A stretch of DNA of 36,466 nucleotides from Candidatus Pacearchaeota archaeon (GCA_017609885.1 JAFCDB010000004.1:1-36466); one strand, 5' to 3'. Positions 172-27,826 are shown, numbered from the stretch's first letter. The notes: generated from the sequence alone by a model not told the origin. A program made the numbers and translations.

Positions 172-1197
172 ATGGAAAAAATATCTCATAGAAACAGAGA
201 AACTCCTTTATTTTTAGATGATTATAGTAGTTACCTTAGTTCTTGGACAGAAGCACTTCGAGGATACAGCATCCCCTCCTCTTTTGTAAATGAAGTAAAA
301 AATCAATTAACAGAAATGACTATTGGAAATATGGAAGGAACAATGATTTTACAAAGTGCCCCAAATGCTGAAATGAGACATGCCTTGATGAAAAAACAAA
401 ATAAATACATCCCCTTAAAACATCATGATCAATATGGTTTGAGAATTGATACAAATTGTTTTCTATGCGAAAATGTTTTACAAGGAATAGACGCATCTAC
501 AAATCAGGAAGAGGTTCCTAATAATGTCATGGAAGACCTAGGATACGCTTTTGTGTTGCCAAATCGGTATCCTCATCAAATTGGCCATGCATTATTAGTC
601 CAAAAAAACCATGATAACCTGAGATTAAGATGCAAAAGAGTTGAAAAAGATGATGAACTATTTTACTTTCCAGAAAAAGGAAAAACCCGAGGAGGAATAG
701 TAACAAGTGAGTGCTTGGAAAAACTTATTGATTATTCAGATAAAAACAATTTAATCAATACAAGAAATCATACCTTAGATGCTATGAGTATTCCAGAACA
801 TGAACACTTCCATATATATCCAAGAGTCCTCAAAAGTTACTCTCTTATTAAAGAAGTTTCGAAAGAAAGAATCCAGATAGGAAAAAACACATTTAGATTA
901 GTTAACACTTTTTTTGATACCTTATGTGTTGATAGAAATTACGACGAGTCTAATTTTATTGATACTTGCCAATCTGTTTTAGAATCTCTTGAAAGAGACA
1001 ACCAGGTGTTCACAACATTCTATTCAGAGGGTATTTTTCTTATCACGCCAAGAAGAAATATTGAAAGTTCTCCAATTATTACATCATCTGCTGCGTCTGT
1101 ACATCATTGTGCAAAGGGTAATTTAGAAAAAATTAAAAAATTTGTAGTGCCAAAAGGGGAATTTAACTGGGAGAAATATTTGAAAACTATAATGTAG
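172..1197 (+). CDS. HIT/GalT-like nucleotide phosphorylase or nucleotidyltransferase
   Basis: This 341-residue protein looks like a member of the HIT/GalT superfamily, close in layout to DUF4922 and Ap4A/GDP-galactose phosphorylase-type proteins. Seen: a Cys pair at C96/C99 (CFLC), an N-R-Y-P element at 131-134 followed by G-H-A-L-L-V, and the histidine-triad core H210-x-H212-x-H214. In this superfamily the middle histidine is the nucleophile that forms a nucleotidylated intermediate. The substrate cannot be told from sequence; nucleotide sugars or dinucleoside polyphosphates are plausible given the glycosylation genes around it. It has its own TATA-like box and starts the block that continues into a run of radical SAM genes 160 bp downstream. 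I am fairly sure of the superfamily and not of the reaction. Confidence 0.7.
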   Translation: MEKISHRNRETPLFLDDYSSYLSSWTEALRGYSIPSSFVNEVKNQLTEMTIGNMEGTMILQSAPNAEMRHALMKKQNKYIPLKHHDQYGLRIDTNCFLCENVLQGIDASTNQEEVPNNVMEDLGYAFVLPNRYPHQIGHALLVQKNHDNLRLRCKRVEKDDELFYFPEKGKTRGGIVTSECLEKLIDYSDKNNLINTRNHTLDAMSIPEHEHFHIYPRVLKSYSLIKEVSKERIQIGKNTFRLVNTFFDTLCVDRNYDESNFIDTCQSVLESLERDNQVFTTFYSEGIFLITPRRNIESSPIITSSAASVHHCAKGNLEKIKKFVVPKGEFNWEKYLKTIM

Positions 1198-1357: not shown

Positions 1358-2413
1358 ATGACAGATCTTTCAATAGACAACCACAAATTAATGTATCATC
1401 CAGAAAGAGTTGCGCAATGGAAAAAAACAGGAGATTGTTTTCCAATTTATGTTGAAATAGGGCCTACAAATCGATGCAACCATAAATGTATTTTTTGTGC
1501 ATTGGATTTTTTAGAACATGAAACCCAAGATATAAAAAAAGAAACCTTGCTGTCAAATTTAGAAGATATGGCAAAACACGGAGTTAAATCAGTAATGTTT
1601 GCAGGAGAAGGGGAGCCACTTGTTCATAAAGATACGCCATTATTTATTGAAAATGCAAAAGAACAGGGAATGGATGTTTCAACAACGACAAATGGGGTTT
1701 TATTTAATCAAAGAAAAACAGAACAATGTTCGCCAAATTTAACCTGGGCAAGGTTTAGTGTTAATTCAGGAACTGCAGAAAATTACGCAGAAGTTCATGG
1801 AACTAATAAAAAAGATTTTGATAAAGTAATTGGAAATATAAAATATGCTGTAGAATTTAAAAAGGAAAATAAATTACAAACAACTCTTGGAGTCCAAACT
1901 CTTCTTCTTTCAGCAAATGCACATACAATTGAGGATTTAGCAAGAATCTGCAGGGATATTGGAGCAGATAATTTGCAAATTAAACCCTATTCTCACCATC
2001 CTCAAAGTAAAAATGACTGGATAGTTGATGAAATAGATGCAGAAAGATTAGAGGAAAAATTAATGGCTCTTGAAACTCAAGATTTTGAAATTCATTTTAG
2101 AAAAAAAACTAAAGAAAGAATTCAACAAGGAGCAACATATTCTGAATGTTATGGACTTCCATTTTTTGCATTAATTTCTGCAAACGGGGATGTTATTCCC
2201 TGCAATCTTTTTTATGATAATTCCGAGTTTACATATGGAAATTTAAATAATCAAACTTTTAGTGAAATATGGCAAGGGGAAAAAAGAAAACAAGTTTTAG
2301 AAAAGTTGAGAAAAAATGGTGTTGATAATTGCAGAAAAGGATGCAGATTAGACCCAATTAATCGCTATCTCGAAAGATTAATAAAGCCAGGCCTTCATGA
2401 TAATTTTATATAA
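1358..2413 (+). CDS. Radical SAM protein with SPASM-like C-terminus
   Basis: A 351-residue radical SAM enzyme. The [4Fe-4S] cluster motif is C40-x3-C44-x2-C47, followed by a G-E-G-E-P element at 83-87 that corresponds to the usual SAM-binding GGEP. The C-terminal part carries C264, C282 (in a NGDVIPC context) and C325/C329, an arrangement like SPASM/twitch domains that bind auxiliary Fe-S clusters. Family members modify peptides, sugars or cofactors; nothing in the sequence says which. It is the first gene of a tight unit: its TAA is followed by a single A and then the ATG of the Nudix gene, which suggests translational coupling. Confidence 0.85.
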   Translation: MTDLSIDNHKLMYHPERVAQWKKTGDCFPIYVEIGPTNRCNHKCIFCALDFLEHETQDIKKETLLSNLEDMAKHGVKSVMFAGEGEPLVHKDTPLFIENAKEQGMDVSTTTNGVLFNQRKTEQCSPNLTWARFSVNSGTAENYAEVHGTNKKDFDKVIGNIKYAVEFKKENKLQTTLGVQTLLLSANAHTIEDLARICRDIGADNLQIKPYSHHPQSKNDWIVDEIDAERLEEKLMALETQDFEIHFRKKTKERIQQGATYSECYGLPFFALISANGDVIPCNLFYDNSEFTYGNLNNQTFSEIWQGEKRKQVLEKLRKNGVDNCRKGCRLDPINRYLERLIKPGLHDNFI

Positions 2414-2414
2414 A

Positions 2415-2813
2415 ATGAAAAAAATAGTAAAAATAATTTTAATTAATAAAAAAGAAATTCTTTTATACAAAAGAGACAATAAACCATCAATTTCTTATCC
2501 AGGATATTGGGATTTAATCGGAGGCGCAGTAGAAAAAAACGAATCAGAAAAACAAGCATTAAAAAGAGAAATAAAAGAAGAAATAAATTGCGAAATTAAA
2601 AACATTAAATTTGTAAAAAAAATACAATTATTTTCTTATGGAGAAGATTACAGTTTATTTTTTTTCAGGGGGGATATTGATACTCCAATAGAAAAAATTA
2701 CACTGACAGAGGGACAGTATTTAAAGTATTTTACTTTTGAAGAACTTCCTAAAATCAAAATTCCAGAACATCAGAGAGAGATTATTTTAAATAATAAGAA
2801 TAAAATTTTATAA
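2415..2813 (+). CDS. Nudix hydrolase
   Basis: A 132-residue Nudix-fold hydrolase. The Nudix box runs G-x5-E-x7-R-E-x-x-E-E; the glycine usually found after the EE is replaced by Asn. Such enzymes cleave nucleoside diphosphates linked to another moiety, for example NDP-sugars or oxidised nucleotides. I take the ATG at 2415 as start. A longer frame from 2397 would overlap the upstream gene by 17 nt, whereas 2415 gives the stop-A-ATG spacing also seen at the next junction. A G6 run lies at 2668-2673. Its place between two radical SAM genes suggests it acts on a nucleotide-linked substrate or product of the same pathway, which is inference. Confidence 0.85.
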   Translation: MKKIVKIILINKKEILLYKRDNKPSISYPGYWDLIGGAVEKNESEKQALKREIKEEINCEIKNIKFVKKIQLFSYGEDYSLFFFRGDIDTPIEKITLTEGQYLKYFTFEELPKIKIPEHQREIILNNKNKIL

Positions 2814-2814
2814 A

Positions 2815-4833
2815 ATGAAAGTGCCAATAAGTTTCTCAGATTTAACACATACAGGAAAAGGACTTGCAAGCAGCACATTTCCTTTAGGAGTTTCTTATGT
2901 TGCATCTTATGCTCTAAAAAAATTCCCCGAAGAAATTTCAGCAGAAATTTTCAAATATCCAGAAGATTTTGCAAATTATTTAGAAAAAACAAATCCTAAG
3001 ATTGCATGCTTTTCAAATTATGCATGGAATTCAAATCTTTCCTGCGAATTTGCAAAAAGAATAAAACAGAAATCTCCAGGCACAATAACTGTCTTTGGAG
3101 GCCCTGATTATCCCCTTGATCATGATAAACAAGAAGAATTTTTGCTTTCACACCCAGAAATTGATTTCTATATTGTAAGAGAAGGAGAACAAGCATTTTC
3201 TGAATTATTAAAAACAGCATTACAATATAATTTTGATGTCAATAATATTAAATCTCAAAAATCAATTCTTTTAAGTTGCCATTATATTCAAGATGGAAAA
3301 ATTGTCAGAGGAACTCCTACGCAAAGATTATCAAACTTAGATGAAATTCCCTCGCCTTATCTTTTAGGATTAATGGATAAATTTTTTGATGAAAAGTTAA
3401 TGCCTTTAATTCAAGGTACTCGCGGATGTCCATTTAGCTGCACATATTGTACTGAAGGAAATGATTATTTTAATCAAATTGCCAGATTTTCTAAGAAACG
3501 TGCAATAGATGAATTTGATTATATTGCTCAAAGAGCAAAAGTTCCAAATTTAGGAATAGTTGATTCAAATTTTGGAATGTATCTGCATGATTTAGAACTT
3601 TGCAATTCTCTCTCAGAAAAAAGAAAAAAATACAATTGGCCCAAATTTATAGATGTATCAACTGGAAAAAATCAAAAGAAAAGAACAATGGAATGTGTGG
3701 AATTGCTTGGGGGGGCAATGCATTTAGGTGCATCTGTTCAATCAACAGACCATGAAGTTTTAAAAAATATCAAGAGACAAAATATTTCAACAAATGAAAT
3801 GGTTGAATTAACTAAATTTGCTGAAACTCTTGGAGCAAATAGCCAGGGAGAAGTTATCTTAGCTCTTCCAGGTGATACAAAACAGGCCCACTTTAAATCA
3901 GTATTTGATTTGTTAGATGCAGGTGTAAATCTTTCTAGAACCTACCAACTTATTCTTCTGCCAGCTTCAGAAGTTTCGAGTATAGAATCTAGAAAAAAAT
4001 ACCCAATGCAAACTCGCTTTAGAGTAATACCTTATTGTTTTGGAGATTACAATCTTTATGGAGAACAATTTTCTGCTGCAGAAACAGAGGAGATATGTAT
4101 TTCTAGTAATATAATGTCCTTTGAAGATTATTTAGATTGCCGTTCACTTAGTTTAACAGCCGAAATATTTTATAATAGCCAAATTTTAGGGGAATTAATA
4201 AAATTTCTTGAACAAAACAATATAACTCCTTCAAAATTGGTGGGAAATATTCATGAATCAGTTACTAAAAATCCTCAAGGAATGCAAGAAATTTATCAAG
4301 GATTTTTAGAAGAAAATAAGAGAGATTTATGGGAAAGCAGAAACGATTTAAAAAAATTTCTTCAGCAGCCAGGAATTATTAAACGTTATGAGTTAGGAGA
4401 GTTGGGAAAAAATGAATTATTTGAATACAAAGGGAAAGCATTTTTTGAAAAAATGCGAGAATTACATAAAGTTGCTTTTGAAGAAGCAAGAAAATTATTA
4501 AAACAAAATAATTCCTTAGATGAGCAATCTGAAAATTATCTGCAGGAACTCCATGATTTTAGTTTATTGCGTAAACAATCTCTTTTATCAGATAAAACAG
4601 AAACAAAGAAATTTCATTTTGATTTTGTAACTCTTTTAAAAGATAAATTTGATTCTAACCCCTTCAATCATTCAGTATCTGAAGGCATTGACATAAAAAT
4701 ATCTCATTCAGATGAACAAAGAACTTTAATTGAAGATTATTTAACTCAATATAGCCCTTCAGGAAGTGGACTTGGAAGAATTTTGCAAAAAGCCCATGTT
4801 CCCATGTTATATCGAAAAGCTTTAACAGTATAA
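2815..4833 (+). CDS. B12-binding-type radical SAM protein with long C-terminal extension
   Basis: A 672-residue protein. The N-terminal 170 residues look like the cobalamin-binding Rossmann domain of class B radical SAM enzymes: an F-P-L-G-V-S-Y stretch at 22-28, F-G-G-P at 94-97 and V-R-E-G-E at 121-125. The D-x-H-x-x-G motif of base-off B12 mutases is absent, as is usual in this class. The radical SAM cluster motif is C205-x3-C209-x2-C212. The protein continues for about 250 residues past the expected end of the radical SAM core as a charged helical region I do not recognise. Known relatives do C- or P-methylations and ring rearrangements. It starts 1 nt after the Nudix stop. A G7 run at 3709-3715 sits inside the gene. 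Confidence 0.8.
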   Translation: MKVPISFSDLTHTGKGLASSTFPLGVSYVASYALKKFPEEISAEIFKYPEDFANYLEKTNPKIACFSNYAWNSNLSCEFAKRIKQKSPGTITVFGGPDYPLDHDKQEEFLLSHPEIDFYIVREGEQAFSELLKTALQYNFDVNNIKSQKSILLSCHYIQDGKIVRGTPTQRLSNLDEIPSPYLLGLMDKFFDEKLMPLIQGTRGCPFSCTYCTEGNDYFNQIARFSKKRAIDEFDYIAQRAKVPNLGIVDSNFGMYLHDLELCNSLSEKRKKYNWPKFIDVSTGKNQKKRTMECVELLGGAMHLGASVQSTDHEVLKNIKRQNISTNEMVELTKFAETLGANSQGEVILALPGDTKQAHFKSVFDLLDAGVNLSRTYQLILLPASEVSSIESRKKYPMQTRFRVIPYCFGDYNLYGEQFSAAETEEICISSNIMSFEDYLDCRSLSLTAEIFYNSQILGELIKFLEQNNITPSKLVGNIHESVTKNPQGMQEIYQGFLEENKRDLWESRNDLKKFLQQPGIIKRYELGELGKNELFEYKGKAFFEKMRELHKVAFEEARKLLKQNNSLDEQSENYLQELHDFSLLRKQSLLSDKTETKKFHFDFVTLLKDKFDSNPFNHSVSEGIDIKISHSDEQRTLIEDYLTQYSPSGSGLGRILQKAHVPMLYRKALTV

Positions 4834-4856
4834 AACATATTTTCATTAACAACAAT

Positions 4857-4866
4857 AATTTTAAAC
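4857..4866 (+). promoter_or_regulatory. Possible TATA-like box before the second SPASM-type radical SAM gene
   Basis: AATTTTAAAC is centred about 30 nt before the ATG at 4892, in the 58-bp gap after the B12-type gene. The spacing is slightly long compared with the other boxes. Confidence 0.35.
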
Positions 4867-4891
4867 CTTCTCTCTTTAACAATTTTATAAA

Positions 4892-5818
4892 ATGACTAAA
4901 AAAGAAATAAAACTTCCCGATTCCTATAAATACATTGCAGCATTCCTAACAATGAGGTGCAATCTTAATTGTACTTATTGTTTAAATGACTTTGATAAAG
5001 GCCTTGATAGAAAATCCTTTAAAGAAATCTCTGGAGAAAAATGGGTAGATGCATTAAATAAAATAAACTCTCGTCCAGAAGTTCCAGTAACTTTTTGTGG
5101 AGGAGAACCCTTTCTACACAAAAATTTCATAGAAATCATTAATAATCTCAAACCAGAACTTAATATAGATATCCTCACAAATTTAACATGGGGGGGAAAA
5201 GGATTAGAAAGGTTTATTGAAGAAGTAAATCCAGAAAGATTAAGAAGAGATGCAAACTATTCATCAATTCGGGCTTCTTACCATCCAGAGCAAATGGGAA
5301 ACGGAGAAAAGGTTGTAAAAAATGCAAAAAAATTAAAAAAAGCAGGATTTGACGTCGGCATTTATGCAGTCCAATATCCAAGTCAAAAACAATTGCAAGC
5401 AATAACTCAAATGCAATTCAGATGTTTAGATTCTGGAATTGATTTTAGAGTAAAAGATTTTACAGGAAAATTTGAAGGAATAGATGATTTAGGAAATCCA
5501 TTTTTAATAACTTATGGAGATTATTCTAAATATTCTGGTTGCTCTTTTCAAAAAACAACAAAAGAATGTGAATGCAAAACTTCTGAATTGTTAATAGGCC
5601 CAAATGGAAGGGTGTATAAATGTCATAGAGATTTATATTCAGAAGAATTTCCAACAGGGAATATAACTGATAAAGATTTTAAAATTCAAGATAGGTTCAG
5701 GCATTGCGAAAAATTCGGACAGTGCCATCCTTGCGACACCAAAGTAAAAACAAATTACCAGCAAAACTTGGGCCACACATCTGTTGAGATAAAAAATATA
5801 GAATCAAAAACATTTTAA
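4892..5818 (+). CDS. Radical SAM protein with Cys-rich SPASM-like C-terminus
   Basis: A 308-residue radical SAM enzyme with the cluster motif C23-x3-C27-x2-C30 and G-G-E-P at 70-73. The C-terminus has seven cysteines (C217, C226, C228, C244, C272, C278, C281) around a P-N-G-R-V-Y-K-C segment, typical of SPASM-type domains with auxiliary clusters. The family includes peptide-modifying and other maturase enzymes; the substrate here is unknown. I see no small precursor peptide gene next to it. A G7 run at 5190-5196 codes for a Trp-Gly-Gly stretch and is unusual in such an AT-rich gene. A radical SAM gene of the same type follows 22 bp downstream. Confidence 0.85.
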   Translation: MTKKEIKLPDSYKYIAAFLTMRCNLNCTYCLNDFDKGLDRKSFKEISGEKWVDALNKINSRPEVPVTFCGGEPFLHKNFIEIINNLKPELNIDILTNLTWGGKGLERFIEEVNPERLRRDANYSSIRASYHPEQMGNGEKVVKNAKKLKKAGFDVGIYAVQYPSQKQLQAITQMQFRCLDSGIDFRVKDFTGKFEGIDDLGNPFLITYGDYSKYSGCSFQKTTKECECKTSELLIGPNGRVYKCHRDLYSEEFPTGNITDKDFKIQDRFRHCEKFGQCHPCDTKVKTNYQQNLGHTSVEIKNIESKTF

Positions 5819-5820
5819 AC
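5813..5820 (+). promoter_or_regulatory. TATA-like box spanning the preceding stop codon
   Basis: TTTTAAAC is centred about 24 nt before the ATG at 5841 and contains the TAA stop of the preceding gene. It could give the next radical SAM gene its own leaderless transcript. Confidence 0.45.
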
Positions 5821-5840
5821 ACCTTTATTCTACAAATTTA

Positions 5841-6800
5841 ATGAAGCTTCAAAAATTTTTCAACCGAAACTTAAGAACCCTGATTTTTTTTGTGACAACT
5901 CGCTGTCCTTTAAAATGCAAACATTGTTTTTATGCAAATGAACTTAATCAGCAAAATATTAAAGAACTTACAGTAGAAGAAATAGAAAAAATCGCAGACA
6001 ATCTTCCACATTTAGAATATTTGCAACTTTCAGGAGGCGAGCCATTTATGCGGGAAGATTTAGTTGAATTAGTAGAAATATTTTTCAAAAGAGGGCTAAA
6101 AAAAGTTATAATTCCTACAAATGGATTTTTCACAAAACAAATTGTTTCTAAAGTCCAGAAAATGAAAAACAAAGGATTTAATTTCTCAATAATGATATCT
6201 GTTGATGGATTCAAAGATTTGCACAATGAAATTCGCGGAAGAGATTGTTTTGACAACGCAATGCAAACTTTTGATGAACTGAAAAAGATAGGAGTTGAAG
6301 CAGGATTTAATGTAGCCCTCAGTAAAATTAATTACTCTACATATATTAACCTATTAAAATTCCTAAAAACAAAAACAAACAATCTTGACCCAATTTTAGT
6401 TAGAGCAAAACCCGGAGTAATGATAACTGCTGAAGAATTTAAAAAAATTGCTTCTGAAATTGAAAAAATAACTTCTGAAAAATTAAATCCTTTTTACAAA
6501 AAAAGAAAACAAATACTAGATGAAATTTATTGCAGTATTTTAGAAGGAAAACCAGTCCCATATAAATGTCTTGCAGGAGAAATTATTGCAGTTTTAGAGC
6601 CAGATGGGCAGGTTAGAAGCTGTGAAATTAGAAAGAAGTTAGGAAATGTTAGAGAAAATAATTATAACATAAATGAAATTCTAAAATTAGATAAAATTCC
6701 AAAAAGATGCAGGAACTGCATCCACCCTTGCTTTATCGGCCCAAGTATGTCATATTCTCCAAAATGGATGGCAAAAAATATTCTATATCAGTTTGTATAA
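5841..6800 (+). CDS. Radical SAM/SPASM protein
   Basis: A 319-residue radical SAM enzyme. The N-terminal core has C22-x3-C26-x2-C29 and S-G-G-E-P at 64-68. The C-terminal part has C243, C261 (in a DGQVRSC context) and C290, C293, C297, which is a SPASM-like auxiliary cluster set. It resembles the broad MoaA/PqqE-like group whose members act on peptides and small molecules. Its last 37 nt overlap the start of a GT2 gene in another frame, so the two are probably made together. That pairing suggests the modified substrate is a sugar, a glycolipid or a glycosylated product, which is inference. Confidence 0.85.
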   Translation: MKLQKFFNRNLRTLIFFVTTRCPLKCKHCFYANELNQQNIKELTVEEIEKIADNLPHLEYLQLSGGEPFMREDLVELVEIFFKRGLKKVIIPTNGFFTKQIVSKVQKMKNKGFNFSIMISVDGFKDLHNEIRGRDCFDNAMQTFDELKKIGVEAGFNVALSKINYSTYINLLKFLKTKTNNLDPILVRAKPGVMITAEEFKKIASEIEKITSEKLNPFYKKRKQILDEIYCSILEGKPVPYKCLAGEIIAVLEPDGQVRSCEIRKKLGNVRENNYNINEILKLDKIPKRCRNCIHPCFIGPSMSYSPKWMAKNILYQFV

Positions 6801-7546
6801 TTGCAAGACCTAATTTAGATCTTAGCAAATGTCTCGAATCCATAGAAAATCAAACTTATAAAAATTTTGAAATAGTTATTCATAAAGAATTTGGCTCCTT
6901 TCCAAAACTAAGAAATAAGGTAATTGAAAAAGCAAAAAATGAAATAATTGTTTTTACAGATGCAGATTGCTATGCAGAAAAACACTGGCTTGAACAAGTA
7001 AACAAAATCTTCCAAGACAAAAAAGTAATTGGATTTCACGGAAAAGTTTGTTATGAATTAAATGGAAAATTTCCAACAGCTTCAACAAGAATTGTCACCA
7101 ACGACGGCCAAGACACAATGACTGCAAATGCAGGCTTCAGAGCAAAAATATTAAAAAAAGTAAAATTTGACGAAGAAATAAACTACCTTGAAGACAAAAT
7201 CCTTTTCAAAAGAATGAGCAAACACGGAAAAATAATTTATTCAAAAAATGCAATCATCTTCCACGAATATCAAGAATGGAATTTCAAAAAAACAATTCTC
7301 TATGCAAAAAAAGTCGAGGATTTTTTAAAAGCTAATAAAAAATACAATTTTCCGATACAAAAAATCGGCCCAGTTGTCTTCCCTAAACATTTTCCAATTA
7401 TCTTTTTCCCACCATTGCTTTTTCTTTTCCATTCAATCCGTAGTTCTAAAGATTTGAAAATTGTAATTGCAATGTATTTTGAAAAACTTTACACTAGATT
7501 TTTAATCTGGAGATATGCTTTGAAAAATGGGGAGTTTTTGATTTAA
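6764..7546 (+). CDS. GT2-family glycosyltransferase
   Basis: A 260-residue GT-A fold glycosyltransferase. The N-terminus begins a typical beta strand (SISVCIIAR), and the metal/nucleotide-sugar binding D-A-D is at 66-68 (FTDADC). A conserved Glu-Asp pair (LEDK) near residue 140 may supply the catalytic base. A hydrophobic, aromatic stretch near 205-225 may lie on the membrane. I chose the ATG at 6764 because family homology begins right there; an earlier ATG at 6707 would add only antisense-like residues inside the upstream gene. The TAA shares a TTAA with the stop of the opposing GT9 gene. Donor and acceptor are unknown. Confidence 0.8.
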   Translation: MDGKKYSISVCIIARPNLDLSKCLESIENQTYKNFEIVIHKEFGSFPKLRNKVIEKAKNEIIVFTDADCYAEKHWLEQVNKIFQDKKVIGFHGKVCYELNGKFPTASTRIVTNDGQDTMTANAGFRAKILKKVKFDEEINYLEDKILFKRMSKHGKIIYSKNAIIFHEYQEWNFKKTILYAKKVEDFLKANKKYNFPIQKIGPVVFPKHFPIIFFPPLLFLFHSIRSSKDLKIVIAMYFEKLYTRFLIWRYALKNGEFLI

Positions 7547-8520
7547 ATAATTTTCCTGACGATATTTTTAACATCCTCCACCCCAATAGTCCCCATATTA
7601 ATATTCTTTGTGTATAAAACATGTGAATTATTTCCAAGTGGAACAAATTTATTTAACCAACGAAGAAATAAATTATGCAATTCTATTAATTTTGCTCCAG
7701 ATACCCAAGCAATATGCATTGGTCCCCCATCTTGAGCAATTACAAGATCAGCGTCTTTAAACAATAAAGACATTTTTCTTAAATCAAAATTTAAAATAAC
7801 CCGAGAATTTTTATTTAAATTTGAAAGTTCATTTAGTCGGTTTTCTTCTTTTTTAGTCCCCATCAAAAGCAAGGTCTTTTCAGGTTTAAATTTTCCAAAC
7901 CATTTAATAATTTCTTTCCAATTATCAATTGGCCATTGTTTATTTTCTAATCTTGCATATGGGCACAAACAAATATAGTTTTGTAAATTTTCTTTTTTTA
8001 AAAAATTTTTAATTTCTTCTGTATCTTGTTCACTTGTAAGAATTTCAGGAGAACTATCTTTTACATTTATTCCAAAACCCTCTTTAATTATACAAATGTT
8101 ATCTTCAGTAATATGAGACTTGTATTTTATATTTACAGGATTTGTCAAAAGTAGCTTTATTTTTGGATTAACATCTGTTTTGCTAATACGCTTTTTAATT
8201 CCGCTCAACCATAAAAGAAAAAAACTATTCATAATGCTTCCTCGTAAATCTATTCCAACATCAAATTTTGATCTTTTTATTTTCCAGGACATTTTAAAGT
8301 ATTCCCAAAAACTACGTAAATTATGCTTCGCTAATCCTAACTCCCAAATTTCATCAATATAATTATTCTTCTCGACAACAGAACGATTTAGTTTACTTAC
8401 AATAATTATTATCTTGGCATTTGGAAATTTTTTCTTTAACTCTCTAAAAACCGCACTAGATAAAACTAAATCTCCAATATGGTCATTCCGGATAATCAAA
8501 ATTTTTTTTATATCTTCCAT
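7543..8520 (-). CDS. GT9-family (heptosyltransferase-like) glycosyltransferase
   Basis: A 325-residue GT-B fold protein of the ADP-heptose:LPS heptosyltransferase family. Seen: the N-terminal I-I-R-N-D-x-I-G-D-L signature (9-18), with the Asp expected to be catalytic, and a C-terminal D-G-G-P-M-H-I-A-W segment that binds the donor in this family. In bacteria these enzymes add heptose to the LPS core; an archaeon has no LPS, so the acceptor here must be another glycolipid or glycan. It follows a GT2 gene with a TAATG overlap (stop and start share the A), so the two are translated together. The convergent GT2 at 6764 overlaps it by 4 nt. Confidence 0.85.
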   Translation of the reverse strand: MEDIKKILIIRNDHIGDLVLSSAVFRELKKKFPNAKIIIIVSKLNRSVVEKNNYIDEIWELGLAKHNLRSFWEYFKMSWKIKRSKFDVGIDLRGSIMNSFFLLWLSGIKKRISKTDVNPKIKLLLTNPVNIKYKSHITEDNICIIKEGFGINVKDSSPEILTSEQDTEEIKNFLKKENLQNYICLCPYARLENKQWPIDNWKEIIKWFGKFKPEKTLLLMGTKKEENRLNELSNLNKNSRVILNFDLRKMSLLFKDADLVIAQDGGPMHIAWVSGAKLIELHNLFLRWLNKFVPLGNNSHVLYTKNINMGTIGVEDVKNIVRKII

Positions 8521-9416
8521 TATATAATTTCTCCTTTTATTATCGCTGCAAGTGAATATACTAAAAAATAAAACAAAGAAATAAATCTTCCGATAAAATC
8601 AGCAACTATCCAAAAAAATGAATTCATAACTTCTTTAGATTTAATACTAAAAAAAATCCAGATAACTAATAAATAAATCGGAAGAATATAAATCCAAAAA
8701 AACATTAAAGGCAAGATTAAGCATGGAAGAAAATGTCTAATTGCCCAATATTTTTTCAATCTGAAAATTTTCATCACCATTCCTCTCCCTTGCCATTTTC
8801 TCTGTCTCCAATTATCTTTAAATGTTTTAGGATCAATATGATAAACCCAAGCATCTGTTTCAATTATTCTATGTCCCAATTTTCTAGCATCCTCAAATAA
8901 AACATCATCTTCTACATAAAATAAATCTTCATTATATTTTATTTTATCAAAAAGAGTTTTTTTAACAATTGGTGTTGCACACTTATTATACTGTCTATAT
9001 GAATGCCACCCCCTCTGAAATATTGATTTTGGTTTTTTTGATAGAATTCTTATTGCACCAATCTCAAATTTATTTGACTGAAAAAGATCCAACAATTTTA
9101 TTAAAAAATCTTTTTCAAGTATTTGGTCAGCATCTAAAAATATTAAATAATCTCCTTTTGCTCTTTCTGCACCACGGTTTCTCGCATAAGCTGCACTAGT
9201 TCCTCTCGTATTACTAATGAGTTTTACTTTTTTATTTTGATTCACAATATCCTGGATAACATTTTGAGTATTATCAATTGAACCATCATTCACTACTATA
9301 ATTTCCCAGTTTTTCTCACTTTGAGATAAAATAGATTTTATGCAATTTTCAATTACATCTTCTTCATTATGTGCAGGAATAATAAAACTAAAAATTAACT
9401 TTTTTGTCTTTTCCAT
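8520..9416 (-). CDS. Membrane-anchored GT2-family glycosyltransferase
   Basis: A 298-residue GT2 protein. The N-terminal GT-A domain has F-I-I-P-A-H-N-E-E at 11-19, N-D-G-S at 43-46 and the D-A-D metal site at 95-97. A Q-R-K-W element near 205 resembles the QxxRW acceptor motif of processive and membrane GT2 enzymes. Two or three hydrophobic segments fill residues 225-295, so the C-terminus is probably anchored in the membrane. It is the first gene of a two-gene unit with the GT9 gene. The substrate is not evident. Confidence 0.8.
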   Translation of the reverse strand: MEKTKKLIFSFIIPAHNEEDVIENCIKSILSQSEKNWEIIVVNDGSIDNTQNVIQDIVNQNKKVKLISNTRGTSAAYARNRGAERAKGDYLIFLDADQILEKDFLIKLLDLFQSNKFEIGAIRILSKKPKSIFQRGWHSYRQYNKCATPIVKKTLFDKIKYNEDLFYVEDDVLFEDARKLGHRIIETDAWVYHIDPKTFKDNWRQRKWQGRGMVMKIFRLKKYWAIRHFLPCLILPLMFFWIYILPIYLLVIWIFFSIKSKEVMNSFFWIVADFIGRFISLFYFLVYSLAAIIKGEII

Positions 9417-9441
9417 TATTTAATTTTTATGTTTAAATCTA

Positions 9442-9449
9442 TTATAAAT
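9442..9449 (-). promoter_or_regulatory. TATA-like box for the GT2/GT9 pair
   Basis: ATTTATAA on the minus strand is centred about 29 nt before the ATG at 9416. The 135-bp divergent gap 9417-9551 holds this box and the box of the gene to the right, with nothing else I can identify. Confidence 0.4.
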
Positions 9450-9520
9450 ATTTATATATCTGGACGAAAGCATTTATTTATAATTTAATTGAAAACACCA
9501 GATTTCTCCATTATCTAAAA

Positions 9521-9530
9521 ACTTATAAAG
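9521..9530 (+). promoter_or_regulatory. TATA-like box for the first B12-type radical SAM paralogue
   Basis: ACTTATAAAG is centred 26 nt before the ATG at 9552, with no Shine-Dalgarno between them. Confidence 0.6.
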
Positions 9531-9551
9531 TAGTTCCCTACTTTTAAGATA

Positions 9552-11090
9552 ATGAAAATAACTCTAATTTCCACATCAACTTACCCCTCAGATCAAGGTA
9601 TAAGGACAATTTCCTCTGTTTTAAAAGAAGCAGGCCACGACGTAAAAATCGTTTTCATGACTCTTGGAGAGGATTATTCAAGGAATTATAAAATCGGAGA
9701 ATTATTACAATTAGAAAAACTTTGCAGAGATAGTGAACTAATTGGCATCAATGCATTTGCTTCCACTACAGGTAGAGCAGAAAGAGTCATCTGTTTTTTG
9801 AAGCGAAAGGTAGAATCTCCTATAGTCTATGGGGGAATTCATGCAACACTCTTCCCAGAAAAATGTATAGCTCTTGCAGATATGGTTTGTGTTGGAGAGG
9901 GAGAAGAAGCAATTGTTGAATTAGCAGATGCAATTGAAAAAAACAAACCAATTGATAAAATTAAGAACTTCTGGATAAGAAAAGGAGATAAAATAATCAA
10001 AAATCCTGTAAGAGATTTAATTGATGATCTTGATAAAATTTCTCTACCCGATTATGAGTTAGAAAATCACTATATTTTAGAAGACCAGAAAATAAGAAAA
10101 TTTAATGAAAAAGATTTGGGGGGACAGATATTCTTTTTAACAGGAAGGGGTTGTCCTTATGGATGTGACTACTGTAGTAATAGTTGTTTTAATAAAATAT
10201 ACGAGGGAAAAAGAAAAAAAATTCTAAGATGGCATTCTCCAGAATATATTGTCAATGGAATCTTATATTTTAAAAAGAAATTCCCCTCTTTAGGTTACTT
10301 TGACGTTAGAGATGATACATTCTCATTGAGAACTCTTGAAGACATAAAGAAATTTTGCAAGTTATACAAAGAAAAAGTAAATATGAGATTCAAGTGCCTT
10401 GCAGATCCAAAAACAGTGACAGATGAAAAAATAAAATTGCTTGTGGATGCAGGTTGTACAAATATGATTGTTGGAATACAAGGGAGTGAGCGAACAAATA
10501 AAGAAATTTATCATAGGAACCAAACAGACGCTGATGTAATAAGAACAGCAAAAATTCTTAGCAAATACAAAAAGAAATTGGCAGTGATTTATGATGTTAT
10601 TGGTAGCAACCCCTATGAAAAACCAGAAGATATTGTAAATCTAATAAGGTTACTCCAAAAAATGCCTAAACCATATTTTCTTTCAGTAAATAATCTTGTT
10701 TTCTTTCCAGGAACAAAACTTTACGATAGAGCAAAAGCAGATGGCACAATTAAAACAGAAAAAGACGCAGCTTATTTTTTAGATTATTGGGATAGAGCAA
10801 GTCATATAAAATTAAAGAAAAAAAATATCTATCTTAATTTAATTTTAAATTTAATGAGGGGAGGAGCAACAAAAAGGAGAATTGGATCTTTTCCTAATTT
10901 CTATCTAAATTATTTATTAAAACATAAAAGAGTAGAAAAAAATCTTAAGAACCATTTCCTATCCTACATTATACTTAATTTTTTGTACTTAAGTGATAAC
11001 CTACGTGCAAGGATATTAAAACCATTTTTCAGAAGTTTACCTTTAGATTTTAGACTTTGGTATGATAAACTAAGGCATAATTTTTCTTAG
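9552..11090 (+). CDS. B12-binding-type radical SAM protein, paralogue A
   Basis: A 512-residue class B radical SAM protein. The N-terminal domain shows G-I-R-T-I-S-S at 16-22, a G-G-I-H-A-T-L-F-P-E stretch at 94-103 and V-G-E-G-E at 114-118, as in cobalamin-binding domains. The cluster motif is C201-x3-C205-x2-C208. A basic C-terminal region follows. The protein is closely related along its whole length to the one at 13463-14998, so this is a duplicated gene. One 53-nt stretch is identical at the DNA level in both. A G6 run at 10118-10123 is not present in the paralogue. It may methylate or rearrange a lipid- or glycan-type substrate, which is inference from the neighbouring glycosyltransferases. 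Confidence 0.85.
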   Translation: MKITLISTSTYPSDQGIRTISSVLKEAGHDVKIVFMTLGEDYSRNYKIGELLQLEKLCRDSELIGINAFASTTGRAERVICFLKRKVESPIVYGGIHATLFPEKCIALADMVCVGEGEEAIVELADAIEKNKPIDKIKNFWIRKGDKIIKNPVRDLIDDLDKISLPDYELENHYILEDQKIRKFNEKDLGGQIFFLTGRGCPYGCDYCSNSCFNKIYEGKRKKILRWHSPEYIVNGILYFKKKFPSLGYFDVRDDTFSLRTLEDIKKFCKLYKEKVNMRFKCLADPKTVTDEKIKLLVDAGCTNMIVGIQGSERTNKEIYHRNQTDADVIRTAKILSKYKKKLAVIYDVIGSNPYEKPEDIVNLIRLLQKMPKPYFLSVNNLVFFPGTKLYDRAKADGTIKTEKDAAYFLDYWDRASHIKLKKKNIYLNLILNLMRGGATKRRIGSFPNFYLNYLLKHKRVEKNLKNHFLSYIILNFLYLSDNLRARILKPFFRSLPLDFRLWYDKLRHNFS

Positions 11091-11130
11091 AAGTATTTAA
11101 TAGATTCTTTGATTTAATAGGATTACAAAA

Positions 11131-12219
11131 CTAAAAATTAAATTTTTCATTGTATTTCTCAAGATATTTAGCTCGAGCAAACATTGGATTTTTTATCTTC
11201 TCCCCTCTAACAGGAACAATTTCTTTTGTTCCAAAAATTTTCGGATATGGCTTGTCAATTCCATCGCAAACATGGAAATATTTGCATTTTTTACATTGTT
11301 TAGGTTTTGTATAAAGTTTCTTCACAACTAAGGCAGTTATCATCATATCAAATGAAGAAAATGATTTTAGAGGCAATCTTGCAAGATAAGGAAGATTCTT
11401 AAAAAACTTCTGAAGAAAATATTTATTTGATTTTCTCTCTGTTCTGTATTGCACTGAAGGAATCCACCATTCATCTGCATCATAGTAATTGTGGAAACAA
11501 TTGCAAACATGTTTTTCATAACCTTGCATAAAACAATAAGGAATATATCTAACTGTGATTTTATCAATATGGGGACTCAAAATATCTATGGCCTTTTTTA
11601 TATGAGGCATAAGTTCTGTATATTTTGGAGATAATTCTTCTGCCTTATCCAAAGCAACATCCCATGGATTAAATTTAATAAAATTAACCGCTGCAGGCTC
11701 AAATTGAAGAATATGTTCAGCAAACTTCTCTAAATCTTGATAATTTTCTTTTGCAACTGTAATATTTATTCTCCTTTTAACTCCCAATTTTTTCACATTT
11801 CTAATTGCTTGGTTGTTTTTCTCAAAACTTCCCTTAACGCAAGTTAAATAATCATGCATTTCAGCATCAGGTCCCTCCAAAGAAAATAAAACATCATTAA
11901 GCCCAGCATCAATCAGCTTTTTTGTATAATTCATATTAGACATTCGCAGCCCGTTTGTTATAACACAAATATCTCGAAATCCTAGCGCCTTTGTAAAAGC
12001 CACAAGCTCAACAAAATCCGGCCTGATTGTGGACTCGCCCCCAGAAAAATCAACATCCATTGCACCTAATCTCCGAGCAGTCCTCAACTGCTCTTTCAAA
12101 TAATCAAGCGAAGCATCCTTTTCCTTAATACACGCACTATCTCCATAATAACAAAACCGACATTTCAAATTACATGAATTATTTGTATGAATTTTTACTC
12201 TTTTTGTCTCTTGAACCAT
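11131..12219 (-). CDS. Radical SAM/SPASM protein
   Basis: A 362-residue radical SAM enzyme with the cluster motif C16-x3-C20-x2-C23, a conserved S-G-G-E about 40 residues later, and a C-terminal Cys-rich part (a CNC pair and a C-x2-C-x5-C near residue 310) that looks SPASM-like. I start it at the ATG at 12219. A frame from a GTG at 12276 exists, but a good TATA box lies at 12241-12250, 26 nt before the ATG, which would place transcription start at the ATG itself. It sits between the two B12-type paralogues and opposite a GT4 gene. The substrate is unknown. Confidence 0.85.
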   Translation of the reverse strand: MVQETKRVKIHTNNSCNLKCRFCYYGDSACIKEKDASLDYLKEQLRTARRLGAMDVDFSGGESTIRPDFVELVAFTKALGFRDICVITNGLRMSNMNYTKKLIDAGLNDVLFSLEGPDAEMHDYLTCVKGSFEKNNQAIRNVKKLGVKRRINITVAKENYQDLEKFAEHILQFEPAAVNFIKFNPWDVALDKAEELSPKYTELMPHIKKAIDILSPHIDKITVRYIPYCFMQGYEKHVCNCFHNYYDADEWWIPSVQYRTERKSNKYFLQKFFKNLPYLARLPLKSFSSFDMMITALVVKKLYTKPKQCKKCKYFHVCDGIDKPYPKIFGTKEIVPVRGEKIKNPMFARAKYLEKYNEKFNF

Positions 12220-12240
12220 TTTTAAAAATAGAACAGGCAT

Positions 12241-12250
12241 CTTATAAATC
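12241..12250 (-). promoter_or_regulatory. TATA-like box that fixes the radical SAM start
   Basis: GATTTATAAG on the minus strand is centred 26 nt before the ATG at 12219. It lies inside the longer open frame that begins at 12276, which argues against that longer start. Confidence 0.6.
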
Positions 12251-12315
12251 TTGCTATGGTGAAGTATGTGTTTCACTTTCCAAAAAATTAAAAAACCCTC
12301 TCTCTATCCCAATAC

Positions 12316-13425
12316 ATGAAAAAACTAAAAATACTTGAGCTGACAAATTTCTCAGCAGGAACTTGCGGAGTTTGGCAAAGAGTAAAACAAGAGTCCGAAC
12401 TTTTATCAAAAAAACACGAAGTTAAAATATTTTCTTCAAATGCAACAAAAGGCTCAAAAAAAATCGCCAAAGAAAAAGAAAAATTAGGAAAAATCGAAAT
12501 TCAAAGATTTCCATTTAAAAAACTCGGAGGAGAAGGATATTTGTATTGGAATAGTTTTGAAAAATCTGCCTTAGAATTCAACCCAGATATTATAATTGCT
12601 CATAGCTACAGATTGCCCCACACACATAAAGCAATAAAAATCGCGGAAAAAACAAACTCAAAAGTTTTCTTAGTAACTCACGCCCCGTTTATCAAAGACA
12701 ATTCAACAAGAAATATTATCTCAAAAATATTTGTAATTCTCTATGATAAGTTCATCGCCCCAAGAACAATAAATAAATTCGACAAAATAATTGCAATTAC
12801 TCACTGGGAAATTCCATATCTTCAAAACATTGGAGCTAAAAAAGAAAAAATTTTCTATATCCCCAATGGAATTCCAAAACAATTTTTCACACAATCTTTT
12901 TCAAAAGAACAAAACAAACTACTTTTCTTAGGAAGAATAGCGCCTATAAAAAACATCGAAATTTTAATCAATTCAATGTCAAAAATAAAAAACACAAAAT
13001 TGGAAATTGTTGGCCCTGCTGAACAAAATTATCTTGAAAAACTAAAATCATTAATAAAAGAAAAAAATCTAGAAAAACAAATTTCATTCTCTCAAGGAAT
13101 TTTCGACATAAAAGAAAAAATAAAGAAAATTGATTCTACAAAAATATTTGTTTTGCCTTCAAAAAGAGAGGGAATGCCCCAATCACTAATCGAAGCAATG
13201 GCAAGAGAAAAAATTGTAATTGGAAGCAACAACTCTGGAAATGCAGATTTAATCAAACACAAAGAAAACGGACTTTTGTTTGAAAACAACAATGTCCAAG
13301 ATTTAACAGATAAAATAGGATTTGCTTTAAAACAGGAAGATAGAAAACTCCAAAAAAGCGCGAGAATTTTTGTCGAGCAGTTTGAATGGGGAAAAATCAT
13401 AGATAAAATAGAAGAAATTCTATAA
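12316..13425 (+). CDS. GT4-family glycosyltransferase
   Basis: A 369-residue GT-B glycosyltransferase of family 4. Seen: a hydrophobic start strand (KILELTNF), the second-domain opening F-L-G-R-I-A-P-I-K-N near 210, and the donor-binding E-x7-E element (REGMPQSLIEAM) at about 283-294. Family members use nucleotide sugars, retain anomeric configuration and build cell-surface glycans or glycolipids. An A-rich stretch (about 12283-12295) could be a weak TATA element 26 nt before the ATG. The gene is 37 bp from the second B12-type radical SAM gene and probably co-regulated with it. Confidence 0.9.
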   Translation: MKKLKILELTNFSAGTCGVWQRVKQESELLSKKHEVKIFSSNATKGSKKIAKEKEKLGKIEIQRFPFKKLGGEGYLYWNSFEKSALEFNPDIIIAHSYRLPHTHKAIKIAEKTNSKVFLVTHAPFIKDNSTRNIISKIFVILYDKFIAPRTINKFDKIIAITHWEIPYLQNIGAKKEKIFYIPNGIPKQFFTQSFSKEQNKLLFLGRIAPIKNIEILINSMSKIKNTKLEIVGPAEQNYLEKLKSLIKEKNLEKQISFSQGIFDIKEKIKKIDSTKIFVLPSKREGMPQSLIEAMAREKIVIGSNNSGNADLIKHKENGLLFENNNVQDLTDKIGFALKQEDRKLQKSARIFVEQFEWGKIIDKIEEIL

Positions 13426-13431
13426 TATAAA

Positions 13432-13440
13432 AACTTAAAA
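13432..13440 (+). promoter_or_regulatory. TATA-like box for radical SAM paralogue B
   Basis: CTTAAAAAT is centred 27 nt before the ATG at 13463 in the 37-bp gap after the GT4 gene. Confidence 0.4.
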
Positions 13441-13462
13441 ATATCTCTTTTTCTCTCCTATT

Positions 13463-14998
13463 ATGAAAATAACCCTGATTTCAACATCCACTTTTCCTTC
13501 AGATCAAGGAATAAGAACAGTTTCTTCAGTTCTAAAAGAGCAAGGCCACGACGTGAAAATTGCTTTCATGACACTCAGCGAAGACTATTCTGAAAATTAT
13601 TCAAAATTAGAATTAAAACAGTTGGCAAAAATCTGCAAAAATTCCAAATTAATAGGAGTCAGTTCATTTGCGTCGACTGCTCAAAGAGCTAAAAGAATAA
13701 TTTCCTTTCTCGAAAAAAAATTCCCCAAAATTCCTATTGTCTACGGAGGAGTTCATGCAACAATCTCTCCAGAAAAAGCAATAAAAGATTGCAAAATAAT
13801 AGCAGTTGGAGAAGCAGAAATCACAATAAAAGAATTAGCAGATGCAATTGAGAAAAACAAACCCATTAAAAAAATCAATAATCTTTGGATAAGAGAAAAC
13901 AACAAAATAATAAAAAATCCTCTTAACCATCTTATTGATGATTTAGACCAACTCCCTTTCATTGACTATGATATTAAAAATCATTACATTTTAGAAAATA
14001 AAAAAATAAGAAGATTTCAGGAAAAGGATTTAGCAGGACAGGTTTTCTTTTTGACAGGAAGGGGCTGCCCTTATGGCTGCGACTACTGCTCAAATTCCCA
14101 CTTCAATAAAATGTATGAAGGCAAAAGAAAAAAAATTCTCCGCTGGCACTCGCCAAAATACATAATTGACTGCATCCTTTTCTTAAAAAATAAATTCCCC
14201 TCCCTCACATATTTTGATATCCGCGACGACACATTTTCATTCCGTCCCCTCTCACGAATAAAAGAATTCTGCGAACTTTACAAAGAAAAAGTAAACATGA
14301 GATTTAAGTGCCTTGCAGATCCAAAAACAGTGACAGATGAAAAAATAAAATTGCTTGTTGACGCAGGATGCACAGATATTATTGTAGGAATCCAGGGAAG
14401 CGAAAGAACTAACAGAGAAATTTATCATCGAAACCAGACAGATACCGATGTAATAAGGGCAGCAAAAATACTAAACAAATATAAAAAAATTGCAGTAATG
14501 TACGATGTTATAACCTCCAACCCTTATGAAAAACCCTCAGATATTATTAATCTTATCCAACTTTTGCAAAAACTACCAAAACCCTATTATCTCTCTGTGA
14601 ATAATCTTGTATTTTTTCCAGGAACAAAACTATATGAAAGAGCAAAAAAAGATAGAATAATAAAAAAAGAAAAAGACGCAGCATATCAATTAAATTACTG
14701 GGACAGAAGCAAGCACATCAAACTAAAAAAGAAAAACATTTATTTGAATTTAGTTTTGAATTTAATGCGGGGTAGTGTGACAGAAACTCGATTTGGATTT
14801 ATGCCAAATTCTCTGCTCAATTATTTTTCGAAGGAAAAAAGAGTTAGGAAAAATTTAAAAAATCCTGCTATGTCTTATGTTGCATTATTTTTCCTTTCAA
14901 TTTATGATTTTAACAGAGAAAAAGTTCTCAAGCCAATTTATCGTTCGCTTTCTGTTTCATTTAAAACTTGGTATGATAAGGTTAGGTATCGGGTTTAA
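13463..14998 (+). CDS. B12-binding-type radical SAM protein, paralogue B
   Basis: A 511-residue class B radical SAM protein, paralogous to 9552-11090 from the first residue to the last. It has the same G-I-R-T-V-S-S and G-G-V-H-A-T elements of the cobalamin-type domain and the cluster motif C202-x3-C206-x2-C209. The V-G-E-G-E seen in paralogue A reads V-G-E-A-E here. Synonymous sites have drifted over most of the gene except for a 53-nt identical block at 14306-14358. Its stop shares a TTAA with the stop of queC. Probably the same chemistry as paralogue A on a related substrate. Confidence 0.85.
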   Translation: MKITLISTSTFPSDQGIRTVSSVLKEQGHDVKIAFMTLSEDYSENYSKLELKQLAKICKNSKLIGVSSFASTAQRAKRIISFLEKKFPKIPIVYGGVHATISPEKAIKDCKIIAVGEAEITIKELADAIEKNKPIKKINNLWIRENNKIIKNPLNHLIDDLDQLPFIDYDIKNHYILENKKIRRFQEKDLAGQVFFLTGRGCPYGCDYCSNSHFNKMYEGKRKKILRWHSPKYIIDCILFLKNKFPSLTYFDIRDDTFSFRPLSRIKEFCELYKEKVNMRFKCLADPKTVTDEKIKLLVDAGCTDIIVGIQGSERTNREIYHRNQTDTDVIRAAKILNKYKKIAVMYDVITSNPYEKPSDIINLIQLLQKLPKPYYLSVNNLVFFPGTKLYERAKKDRIIKKEKDAAYQLNYWDRSKHIKLKKKNIYLNLVLNLMRGSVTETRFGFMPNSLLNYFSKEKRVRKNLKNPAMSYVALFFLSIYDFNREKVLKPIYRSLSVSFKTWYDKVRYRV

Positions 14999-15690
14999 TC
15001 TTCATACTCTGTCTTATCCTCAACCCCGCTCCAATAAAATCCTTCCTGTCTCAACTTACAACTTAAACAAGTCCCGCAATGCTTCTCCCCTGCCCCAACA
15101 TAACATGTATATGTTTCCTTAAAATCAATCCCCATCTCAGCCCCTAACTTTATTATATCTTCTTTATCTTTCCTAATAAATGGAGCAATTATCTCAAATT
15201 TCCCAGCAGTCGCAGTCTCCTGCAATTTATTCATTACATCAACAAATTCTGGAGTTGTATCAGGATAAGCTTCATCCCCCTCATTTTTGAAACCAACAAA
15301 TATTTCATTAACCTCTCCTTCAGAAACAAAACGCGCCTCAGCAACAGCTAAAGCATAAACTAAAAAAACAATATTCCTACAAGGCACATACCAATTTTCA
15401 GATTCTTCTTTTGTATCTTTCAAATCTTCTTTTTTCATTTCATTTGCTTTGTCGTTGCTGTTTATCATGGAAGTGGAAATCTTTCCTAACTCCAAAAGTT
15501 CAATTTCTTTAAATTTCGCATTAAGATTTTCAGCACACTTTTTTGAAGCCCTTTTTTCCTGCTCCAAAGTTCTCTGCCCATAATTAAAAAATAAAATCAG
15601 AATTTTTTTGTAATTTTTCTTTTTCTTTACATAATGAGCAGTTACCACACTATCAATTCCCCCTGAGCAGAGTATTATTGCATTTGCCAT
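14995..15690 (-). CDS. queC: 7-cyano-7-deazaguanine (preQ0) synthase QueC
   Basis: A 231-residue QueC. It converts 7-carboxy-7-deazaguanine to preQ0 with ATP and ammonia, a precursor of archaeosine in archaeal tRNA. Seen: the PP-loop S-G-G-I-D-S at 9-14, the N-Y-G-Q-R element, and the four zinc-binding cysteines C196, C205, C208 and C211 (C-x8-C-G-x-C-x2-C). Length fits the family. The start is the ATG at 15690: a TTG at 15705 lies too close to the TATA box at 15711-15718. The gene is transcribed divergently from the small eIF5A-like gene and from the same TATA element. No other deazaguanine genes are in the window. Confidence 0.93.
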   Translation of the reverse strand: MANAIILCSGGIDSVVTAHYVKKKKNYKKILILFFNYGQRTLEQEKRASKKCAENLNAKFKEIELLELGKISTSMINSNDKANEMKKEDLKDTKEESENWYVPCRNIVFLVYALAVAEARFVSEGEVNEIFVGFKNEGDEAYPDTTPEFVDVMNKLQETATAGKFEIIAPFIRKDKEDIIKLGAEMGIDFKETYTCYVGAGEKHCGTCLSCKLRQEGFYWSGVEDKTEYED

Positions 15691-15710
15691 GAAATTCCAT
15701 AACAATTAAT

Positions 15711-15739: not shown

Positions 15740-15937
15740 ATGAAAAAGAAAGCGTCTGAACTAAAAAAAGGGGACAAAATAAAAATAATAGGCAGAATCT
15801 GGATAGTAGAATCTACAGAAACTTCTGACATTGGAAAGCAGGGTTCGAAAAAAACCCGTCTCGAACTTTCCTCTGGAGAAGAAAAAATTGCAATAATCCG
15901 TCCAGCTGAATACCCTTTTGAAGTTCAAAATGATTAA
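15740..15937 (+). CDS. Stand-alone eIF5A/EF-P N-domain-like small protein
   Basis: A basic 65-residue protein that aligns by eye without gaps to the N-terminal KOW-like domain of archaeal aIF5A: L-K-x-G near 8-11, I-x-G at 16-18, and the loop G32-K33-Q34-G35 followed by K38 and R40. K33 falls where aIF5A carries the hypusine-modified lysine (G-K-H-G in aIF5A, G-K-Q-G here). The C-terminal OB domain is missing. It could bind the ribosome, RNA or a partner, or only share the fold; function is unknown. Its end overlaps the start of the next GT2 gene by 8 nt, so the two are likely cotranslated. Confidence 0.6.
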   Translation: MKKKASELKKGDKIKIIGRIWIVESTETSDIGKQGSKKTRLELSSGEEKIAIIRPAEYPFEVQND

Positions 15938-21879: not shown

Positions 21880-21880
21880 T

Positions 21881-22948: not shown

Positions 22949-22966
22949 AAAATAATATAGAATTTC

Positions 22967-22977
22967 TTTTTAAAAAT
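22967..22977 (-). promoter_or_regulatory. TATA-like box overlapping the end of the upstream SDR gene
   Basis: ATTTTTAAAAA on the minus strand is centred about 24 nt before the ATG at 22948 and covers the stop codon of the gene upstream. It could allow separate transcription of the SDR-aminotransferase pair. Confidence 0.45.
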
Positions 22978-27797: not shown

Positions 27798-27817
27798 TTA
27801 AGAATTTGAATTAATTG

Positions 27818-27826
27818 CTTTATAAG
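27818..27826 (-). promoter_or_regulatory. TATA-like box for the GT2 gene
   Basis: CTTATAAAG on the minus strand is centred 25 nt before the ATG at 27797. Confidence 0.55.

Follow-up and report, generated by a model that had tools for sequence, protein, structure and literature searches.

The contig studied here carries seven radical SAM (rSAM) genes between positions 1358 and 14998, amid glycosyltransferase (GT) genes, which raises the question of what these enzymes act on and whether they form one pathway. It comes from a metagenome-derived, 89%-complete genome of 750 kb belonging to a symbiont-type DPANN archaeon (Pacearchaeota-type), and its entire length of 36,466 nucleotides (contig C12) is called the window below. 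A first-pass annotation had described four SPASM-type and three B12-type rSAM enzymes mixed with GT2, GT4 and GT9 enzymes, and had proposed a dedicated pathway that remodels a glycan, a lipid carrier or a glycosylated product.

Seven radical SAM enzymes and their concentration

All seven proteins score between 32 and 89 bits with the Pfam model PF04055, above its cut-off of 29.5, and each retains an intact CX3CX2C motif (CNHKCIFC, CPFSCTYC, CNLNCTYC, CPLKCKHC, CPYGCDYC, CNLKCRFC and CPYGCDYC). The coordinates, the visible Cys motifs and the setting among GT2, GT4 and GT9 genes are thereby confirmed, as are the three B12-type assignments, because the B12-binding domain PF02310 is found in the KedN5-type enzyme, B12a and B12b (Table 1). 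The profile search placed none of the rSAM enzymes above the cut-off of a curated family.

The SPASM label fits the other four enzymes in part: relative to the Pfam SPASM cut-off of 21.5, SPASM1 reaches 42 bits and SPASM2 lies exactly at 21.5, and SPASM3 and SPASM4 fall below. Cys counts suggest that all four carry a twitch-like domain with a single auxiliary cluster rather than a full seven-Cys SPASM domain; SPASM1 has four auxiliary Cys residues. The closest PDB sequence matches of SPASM1 are BtrN, BlsE and, weakly, DesII, and DesII is also the best Foldseek match of its AF2 model (pLDDT 84), so that it is predicted to be a nucleotide-sugar modifying enzyme. The RiPP maturases SuiB and SkfB trail DesII closely, however, and folds alone do not settle the substrate of an rSAM enzyme.

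SPASM2 orthologues (54–68% identity) occur in eight genomes, all eight of which also contain SPASM1. The surroundings of this pair recur as well, with HIT/GalT-like homologues (26–36%) adjoining SPASM1/SPASM2 in L079 and G069, and NUDIX homologues (38–51%) beside SPASM2 in G057, G064, G044, G012 and L079. A GT9 homologue adjoins SPASM1 in G057, G046 and G064 (one gene between) and is found nearby in G044, G051 and G012.

Among the B12-binding enzymes, the KedN5-type protein has both domains and an intact CX3CX2C motif, and its homology to TokK (E 2.8e-42) and CysS (1.1e-28), which are methylcobalamin C-methyltransferases, spans the rSAM and B12 domains. It scores 173.6 bits with the KedN5 profile NF033712, below the cut-off of 700, and has no orthologue among 139 relatives. 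B12b, by comparison, has homologues (43–74%) at roughly 56–57 archaeal loci in Pacearchaeota, Woesearchaeota and 'Nanoarchaeota' records, and its AF2 model (pLDDT 92) resembles TsrM, MgmA, CysS, OxsB, TokK and AprD4 across most of its length. A B12-like fold does not necessarily bind B12, AprD4 being an example, and a FecCD-type B12 importer was not found in the 89%-complete genome. The top NCBIfam profile of B12b (96.6 bits, far under the cut-off of 577.6) is HpnJ TIGR03471, an enzyme that converts lipid-borne glucosamine to a cyclitol ether (PMC12583986). The local duplication that pairs B12a with B12b is seen, among 56 loci, in this window only.

These 36.5 kb, out of a 750-kb genome, contain seven of its 16 rSAM matches (binomial P = 5e-6). 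The left end of the window most likely joins contig C24 to give one locus of about 60 kb, a placement inferred from synteny because homologues of the C24 right end and of the window left end are neighbours in relatives. Specifically, C24 right-end homologues are close neighbours of the SPASM1, NUDIX and SPASM2 homologues in G057, G064, G044 and G012, the genes compared being a SPASM1 paralogue (G057, G064 and G012) and a split transketolase (G057 and G044). The two contigs combined contain 13 of the 16 genomic rSAM genes (P = 2e-12), and on a single contig of G064, 14 of its 15 rSAM genes lie within 37 kb.

The same locus holds sugar cassettes, the split transketolase, a carbamoyltransferase and a sulfotransferase; the last two are encoded on C24 together with a second flippase and GT9/GT28-like enzymes, and SecD/SecF genes lie close to the left end of that contig. 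The split transketolase of the SPASM1 module (L059:2099-3330) matches the TPP and pyrimidine domains only, with no C-terminal domain match, and is the sole transketolase N-domain match in the source genome.

Table 1. Features of the window, in order of position.
Feature	Position	Strand	Basis and remarks
HIT/GalT-like protein	172–1197	+	Motif only, no Pfam match
SPASM1: rSAM, one twitch/SPASM-type auxiliary domain	1358–2413	+	PF04055, PF13186
NUDIX hydrolase, SPASM1–SPASM2 module	2397–2813	+	PF00293
KedN5/TokK/CysS-type B12 rSAM, predicted C-methyltransferase	2815–4833	+	PF02310, PF04055
SPASM2: rSAM with auxiliary Cys domain	4892–5818	+	PF04055
SPASM3: rSAM, twitch-like auxiliary Cys	5841–6800	+	PF04055; singleton cluster
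GT2a, glycosyltransferase family 2	6707–7546	+	PF00535
GT9a, glycosyltransferase family 9	7543–8520	-	PF01075
GT2b, glycosyltransferase family 2	8520–9416	-	PF00535
B12a: B12-binding rSAM, local paralogue of B12b	9552–11090	+	PF02310, PF04055; 72% identity to B12b
SPASM4: rSAM with auxiliary Cys, singleton	11131–12276	-	PF04055; top PDB sequence match GDGT-MAS, next BlsE
GT4a, first gene of conserved backbone block	12316–13425	+	PF00534
B12b: B12-binding rSAM, widely conserved	13463–14998	+	PF02310, PF04055
QueC-like gene within conserved block	14995–15705	-	PF06508
GT2c, conserved backbone GT	15918–16835	+	PF00535
Nucleoside deoxyribosyltransferase-like (NDT), position conserved	16815–17228	-	PF05014
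GT9b, conserved backbone GT	17265–18263	+	PF01075
GT-C (PMT_2), conserved backbone	18269–19918	+	PF13231; about 10 TM segments
Sugar cassette: DegT aminotransferase and three SDR epimerase/dehydratases	20794–24914	-	
Sugar C-methyltransferase, cupin-like C-terminus	25013–26779	+	PF08484; 62% in G036
GT2d, GT2e, GT-C-like membrane protein (28618–30300), GT2f	26769–31116	-	
Wzx/MATE-type flippase	31104–32348	-	PF13440, PF01943; adjoins GPT and AglB in congeners
GPT: polyprenyl-phosphate sugar-1-phosphate transferase	32353–33357	-	PF00953

A glycan-assembly backbone linked to AglB in relatives

Glycan genes continue to the right of position 14998 with more GT2, GT9 and GT-C enzymes, a sugar cassette, a flippase and GPT, so that the window contains the polyprenyl-phosphate sugar transferase and GTs of an agl-type locus (PF00953, PF00535, PF00534 and PF01075). 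The block B12b–QueC–GT2c–NDT–GT9b is complete in 18 of the B12b loci. Of these loci, 33 extend 6 kb or more downstream of B12b, and 25 of them have a GT2c orthologue; among the 43 with enough upstream sequence, 21 have a GT4 gene no more than two genes before B12b. The DegT/SDR cassette is matched at 47–73% in G036. Inside the GT block, the QueC-like and NDT-like genes are on the opposite strand and keep their place across many genera; QueC otherwise occurs in a minority of relatives and is present also in genomes that lack B12b, so that the two genes are at most candidates for a role in glycan synthesis.

About 16 relatives, and every one of the six congeners, have the oligosaccharyltransferase AglB/STT3 linked to the locus. 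The AglB proteins of relatives are 900–990 aa long and carry a WWDYG motif, with PF02516 confirmed in the four tested. AglB (WWDYG) is found together with GPT in G020, G021, G029, G051, G057, G064, G069, L081, L086 and L093, and GPT directly adjoins AglB in about ten relatives besides the six congeners; the congeners (6/6) have the AglB–GPT pair plus the flippase as far as their contigs extend. Furthermore, AglB and B12b are no more than about 300 bp apart in L086, L104 and L105, and the two are also neighbours in L098. The source genome's own AglB is on a separate contig (C26), and the linkage of locus and AglB therefore holds there by comparison only. Because AglB/STT3, GPT and the flippase co-localize with the backbone in relatives, the region is most likely an archaeal N-glycan assembly locus, whose product would be N-linked.

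Radical SAM genes as variable cassettes

The same backbone exists without rSAM genes in one congener. In G001, it runs GT4a–QueC–GT2c–NDT–GT9b–PMT...GT2f–Flip–GPT–AglB, with most genes at 49–67% identity, and B12b is absent between GT4a and QueC, leaving an empty site; not one rSAM gene occurs across that 30 kb. Two other congeners (G002 and G005) have a single rSAM gene each in the corresponding region, and congener totals are two to six rSAM genes versus 16 in the source genome. When the 197 rSAM proteins across loci are clustered at 42% identity, they fall into 75 clusters, 47 of which are singletons. In this sample, which was chosen by the presence of B12b, the B12b family alone is near universal.

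rSAM genes are nevertheless concentrated at these loci. Near B12b there are 0.117 of them per kb versus 0.021 genome-wide, a 5.5-fold difference with B12b itself excluded. Likewise, a 30-kb radius around AglB takes in 26 of the 108 rSAM genes, where at most nine are expected (11 genomes, nine of them without B12b). Not every relative shows the enrichment near AglB: within 40 kb of it, G054 and G033 lack rSAM genes, and G056 yields zero rSAM matches anywhere.

Linkage in related genomes thus separates the seven genes. B12b accompanies the GT backbone in many genera and SPASM1 occurs with SPASM2 in 8/8 genomes, whereas SPASM3, SPASM4 and the KedN5-type gene are essentially unique. The condition named at first as refuting the proposal, single scattered genes with no conserved linkage or membership of unrelated housekeeping families, does not apply to B12b or to the SPASM1–SPASM2 pair. 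A single conserved seven-gene pathway was rejected, as only B12b, SPASM1 and SPASM2 recur in relatives. The dedicated pathway proposed at first therefore survives as a glycan pathway, by its linkage to AglB, GPT and a flippase, but not as a fixed set of enzymes. The rSAM genes are optional, swappable cassettes on a conserved backbone, and the seven-gene island is a variable complement grafted onto a known kind of pathway; in congeners, the same backbone carries no or one rSAM gene.

Other rSAM arrangements were seen outside the window. A B12 rSAM gene with a CX4CX2C motif (CWWGKCKFC; L048:8648-10108), absent from the window, lies near GPT/AglB in about nine relatives, with equivalents in G069, G020, G036, G013, G028, G029, G087 and L081. 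A different contig of G057 has about nine PF04055 matches in 8 kb (G057:C12:1100-9345). In a bacterium, the Phaeospirillum MAG JAUSFB010000044.1 (L129:8642-17351), seven rSAM genes stand in tandem, flanked by transketolase, PfkB+cytidylyltransferase, SDR and GT9 genes. Because this run lies beside GT9 and transketolase genes, the pattern of rSAM-rich sugar loci probably extends beyond archaea.

Proposed sugar tailoring, rival substrates and known systems

The reading that best explains the whole, to which we assign a probability of roughly 0.7, is an N-glycan assembly locus with optional rSAM tailoring of nucleotide- or lipid-linked sugars. GPT would put a sugar-1-phosphate onto polyprenyl phosphate, the GT2, GT4 and GT9 enzymes would lengthen the lipid-borne glycan, the Wzx-type flippase would transfer the glycan-lipid outward and AglB would attach the glycan to asparagines on surface proteins. 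Most likely, the twitch/SPASM enzymes would deaminate, dehydrogenate, epimerize or decarboxylate nucleotide sugars, and the B12 enzymes would C-methylate or rearrange sugars carried on nucleotides or lipids. The outcome would be a hypervariable surface glycan whose tailoring is oxygen-independent. Nucleotide- or lipid-linked sugars are the favoured substrates in view of relatives detected by sequence and model (DesII, BtrN and BlsE; TokK, CysS, OxsB, TsrM and AprD4), and tailoring of sugars before transfer to protein is the economical reading because GPT, GTs, flippase and AglB belong to the same system.

The rSAM enzymes might instead alter the ether lipids of the membrane or the polyprenyl carrier, in the manner of Tes, Gms and HpnJ, with the GTs making glycolipids. 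Archaeal rSAM lipid enzymes are known (PMC11186832, PMC8941075), GDGT-MAS/Tes is the top PDB sequence match of SPASM4 (65 bits) and SPASM3 (48 bits), and the profiles closest to B12a and B12b are those of the ladderane, HpnJ and BchE families. However, the matches are limited to the common rSAM core, and the locus offers nucleotide-sugar genes and AglB linkage, not lipid genes, which makes lipid remodelling unlikely. SPASM3 and SPASM4 were rejected as Tes/Gms-type lipid enzymes, given scores of 71.2 and 74.6 bits with the Tes profile NF045702 against a cut-off of 450.

It is less probable still that a pathway for a diffusible, nucleoside-antibiotic-like metabolite, made up of the HIT, NUDIX, HD, split transketolase and SPASM genes, has merely been inserted in a glycan locus. 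SPASM1 resembles BtrN, BlsE and DesII, each from an antibiotic pathway, the KedN5-type enzyme resembles TokK and CysS, and the SPASM1–SPASM2 module moves as a unit. Yet this module is invariably found among GTs, with the GT9 homologue beside or near SPASM1 in relatives, no PKS/NRPS was seen among the scanned genes, and a flippase and an oligosaccharyltransferase terminate the locus. A glycosylated, radical-modified peptide (RiPP) would accord with the maturation of peptides that is common for SPASM/twitch enzymes and with the nearness of SuiB and SkfB to SPASM1 in fold, but it is highly improbable. The named genes are packed with at most 135 bp between them (9417–9551), too little for a typical precursor gene, and no candidate small ORF was seen there; the Pfam scans found no leader-binding domain, peptidase or exporter. 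A RiPP pathway was rejected for want of space or an ORF for a precursor beside the maturases, in agreement with the initial remark that no precursor gene is evident.

If N-glycan tailoring is correct, the surface glycans of DPANN archaea hold much radical carbohydrate chemistry that has yet to be explored, with anywhere from 0 to about 14 rSAM genes at the N-glycan locus in related genomes, and the locus suggests sugars with chemistry hitherto undescribed. The surface of DPANN archaea has to contact a host cell. A more tentative proposal, which we hold somewhat short of even odds, is that these archaea diversify N-glycans through a large, fast-exchanged rSAM repertoire, in which C-methylation, deamination, carbocycle formation and carbon rearrangement on nucleotide or lipid carriers would yield monosaccharides unknown elsewhere; the comparable run of rSAM genes in a bacterium would then point to a general mode of glycan diversification that is so far undescribed. 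The source genome and G001 provide a natural with/without comparison, and about 75 distinct enzyme clusters are open to testing.

To our knowledge, sugar-acting rSAM enzymes come chiefly from antibiotic and hopanoid pathways. The literature searched contained no link between rSAM enzymes and glycans for DPANN, Pacearchaeota or Woesearchaeota and, judged by titles and term counts, no described archaeal agl locus with rSAM genes, which agrees with the first-pass view that no described archaeal system of this composition is known.

Several known systems share parts of this design. DesII, BtrN and BlsE have the SPASM1 fold with an auxiliary domain and perform nucleotide- or amino-sugar chemistry, but SPASM1 is about 15% identical to them and meets no family model, and theirs are antibiotic pathways. 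The B12 methyltransferases TokK, CysS, KedN5 and TsrM are matched by the KedN5-type gene over both domains and by the two-domain fold of B12b, whereas B12b differs by a conserved C-terminal region of its own, the lack of an equivalog and another pathway context. HpnJ, likewise a B12-binding rSAM enzyme, acts on lipid-linked glucosamine but belongs to the hopanoid pathway, and B12b scores far below its family cut-off. Bacterial O-antigen and capsule loci of the Wzx type also combine a conserved backbone and a flippase with swappable sugar cassettes and DegT/SDR genes; the locus here is archaeal, oligosaccharyltransferase-linked and rSAM-rich. Archaeal agl loci likewise group a polyprenyl GPT, GTs, genes for nucleotide sugars and an STT3/AglB bearing the WWDYG motif at a single site, as relatives do here, but they differ from the present locus in its Wzx-type flippase and its up to about 14 rSAM genes. 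The frame is therefore known from agl and Wzx-type loci, and the rSAM load is what sets this locus apart.
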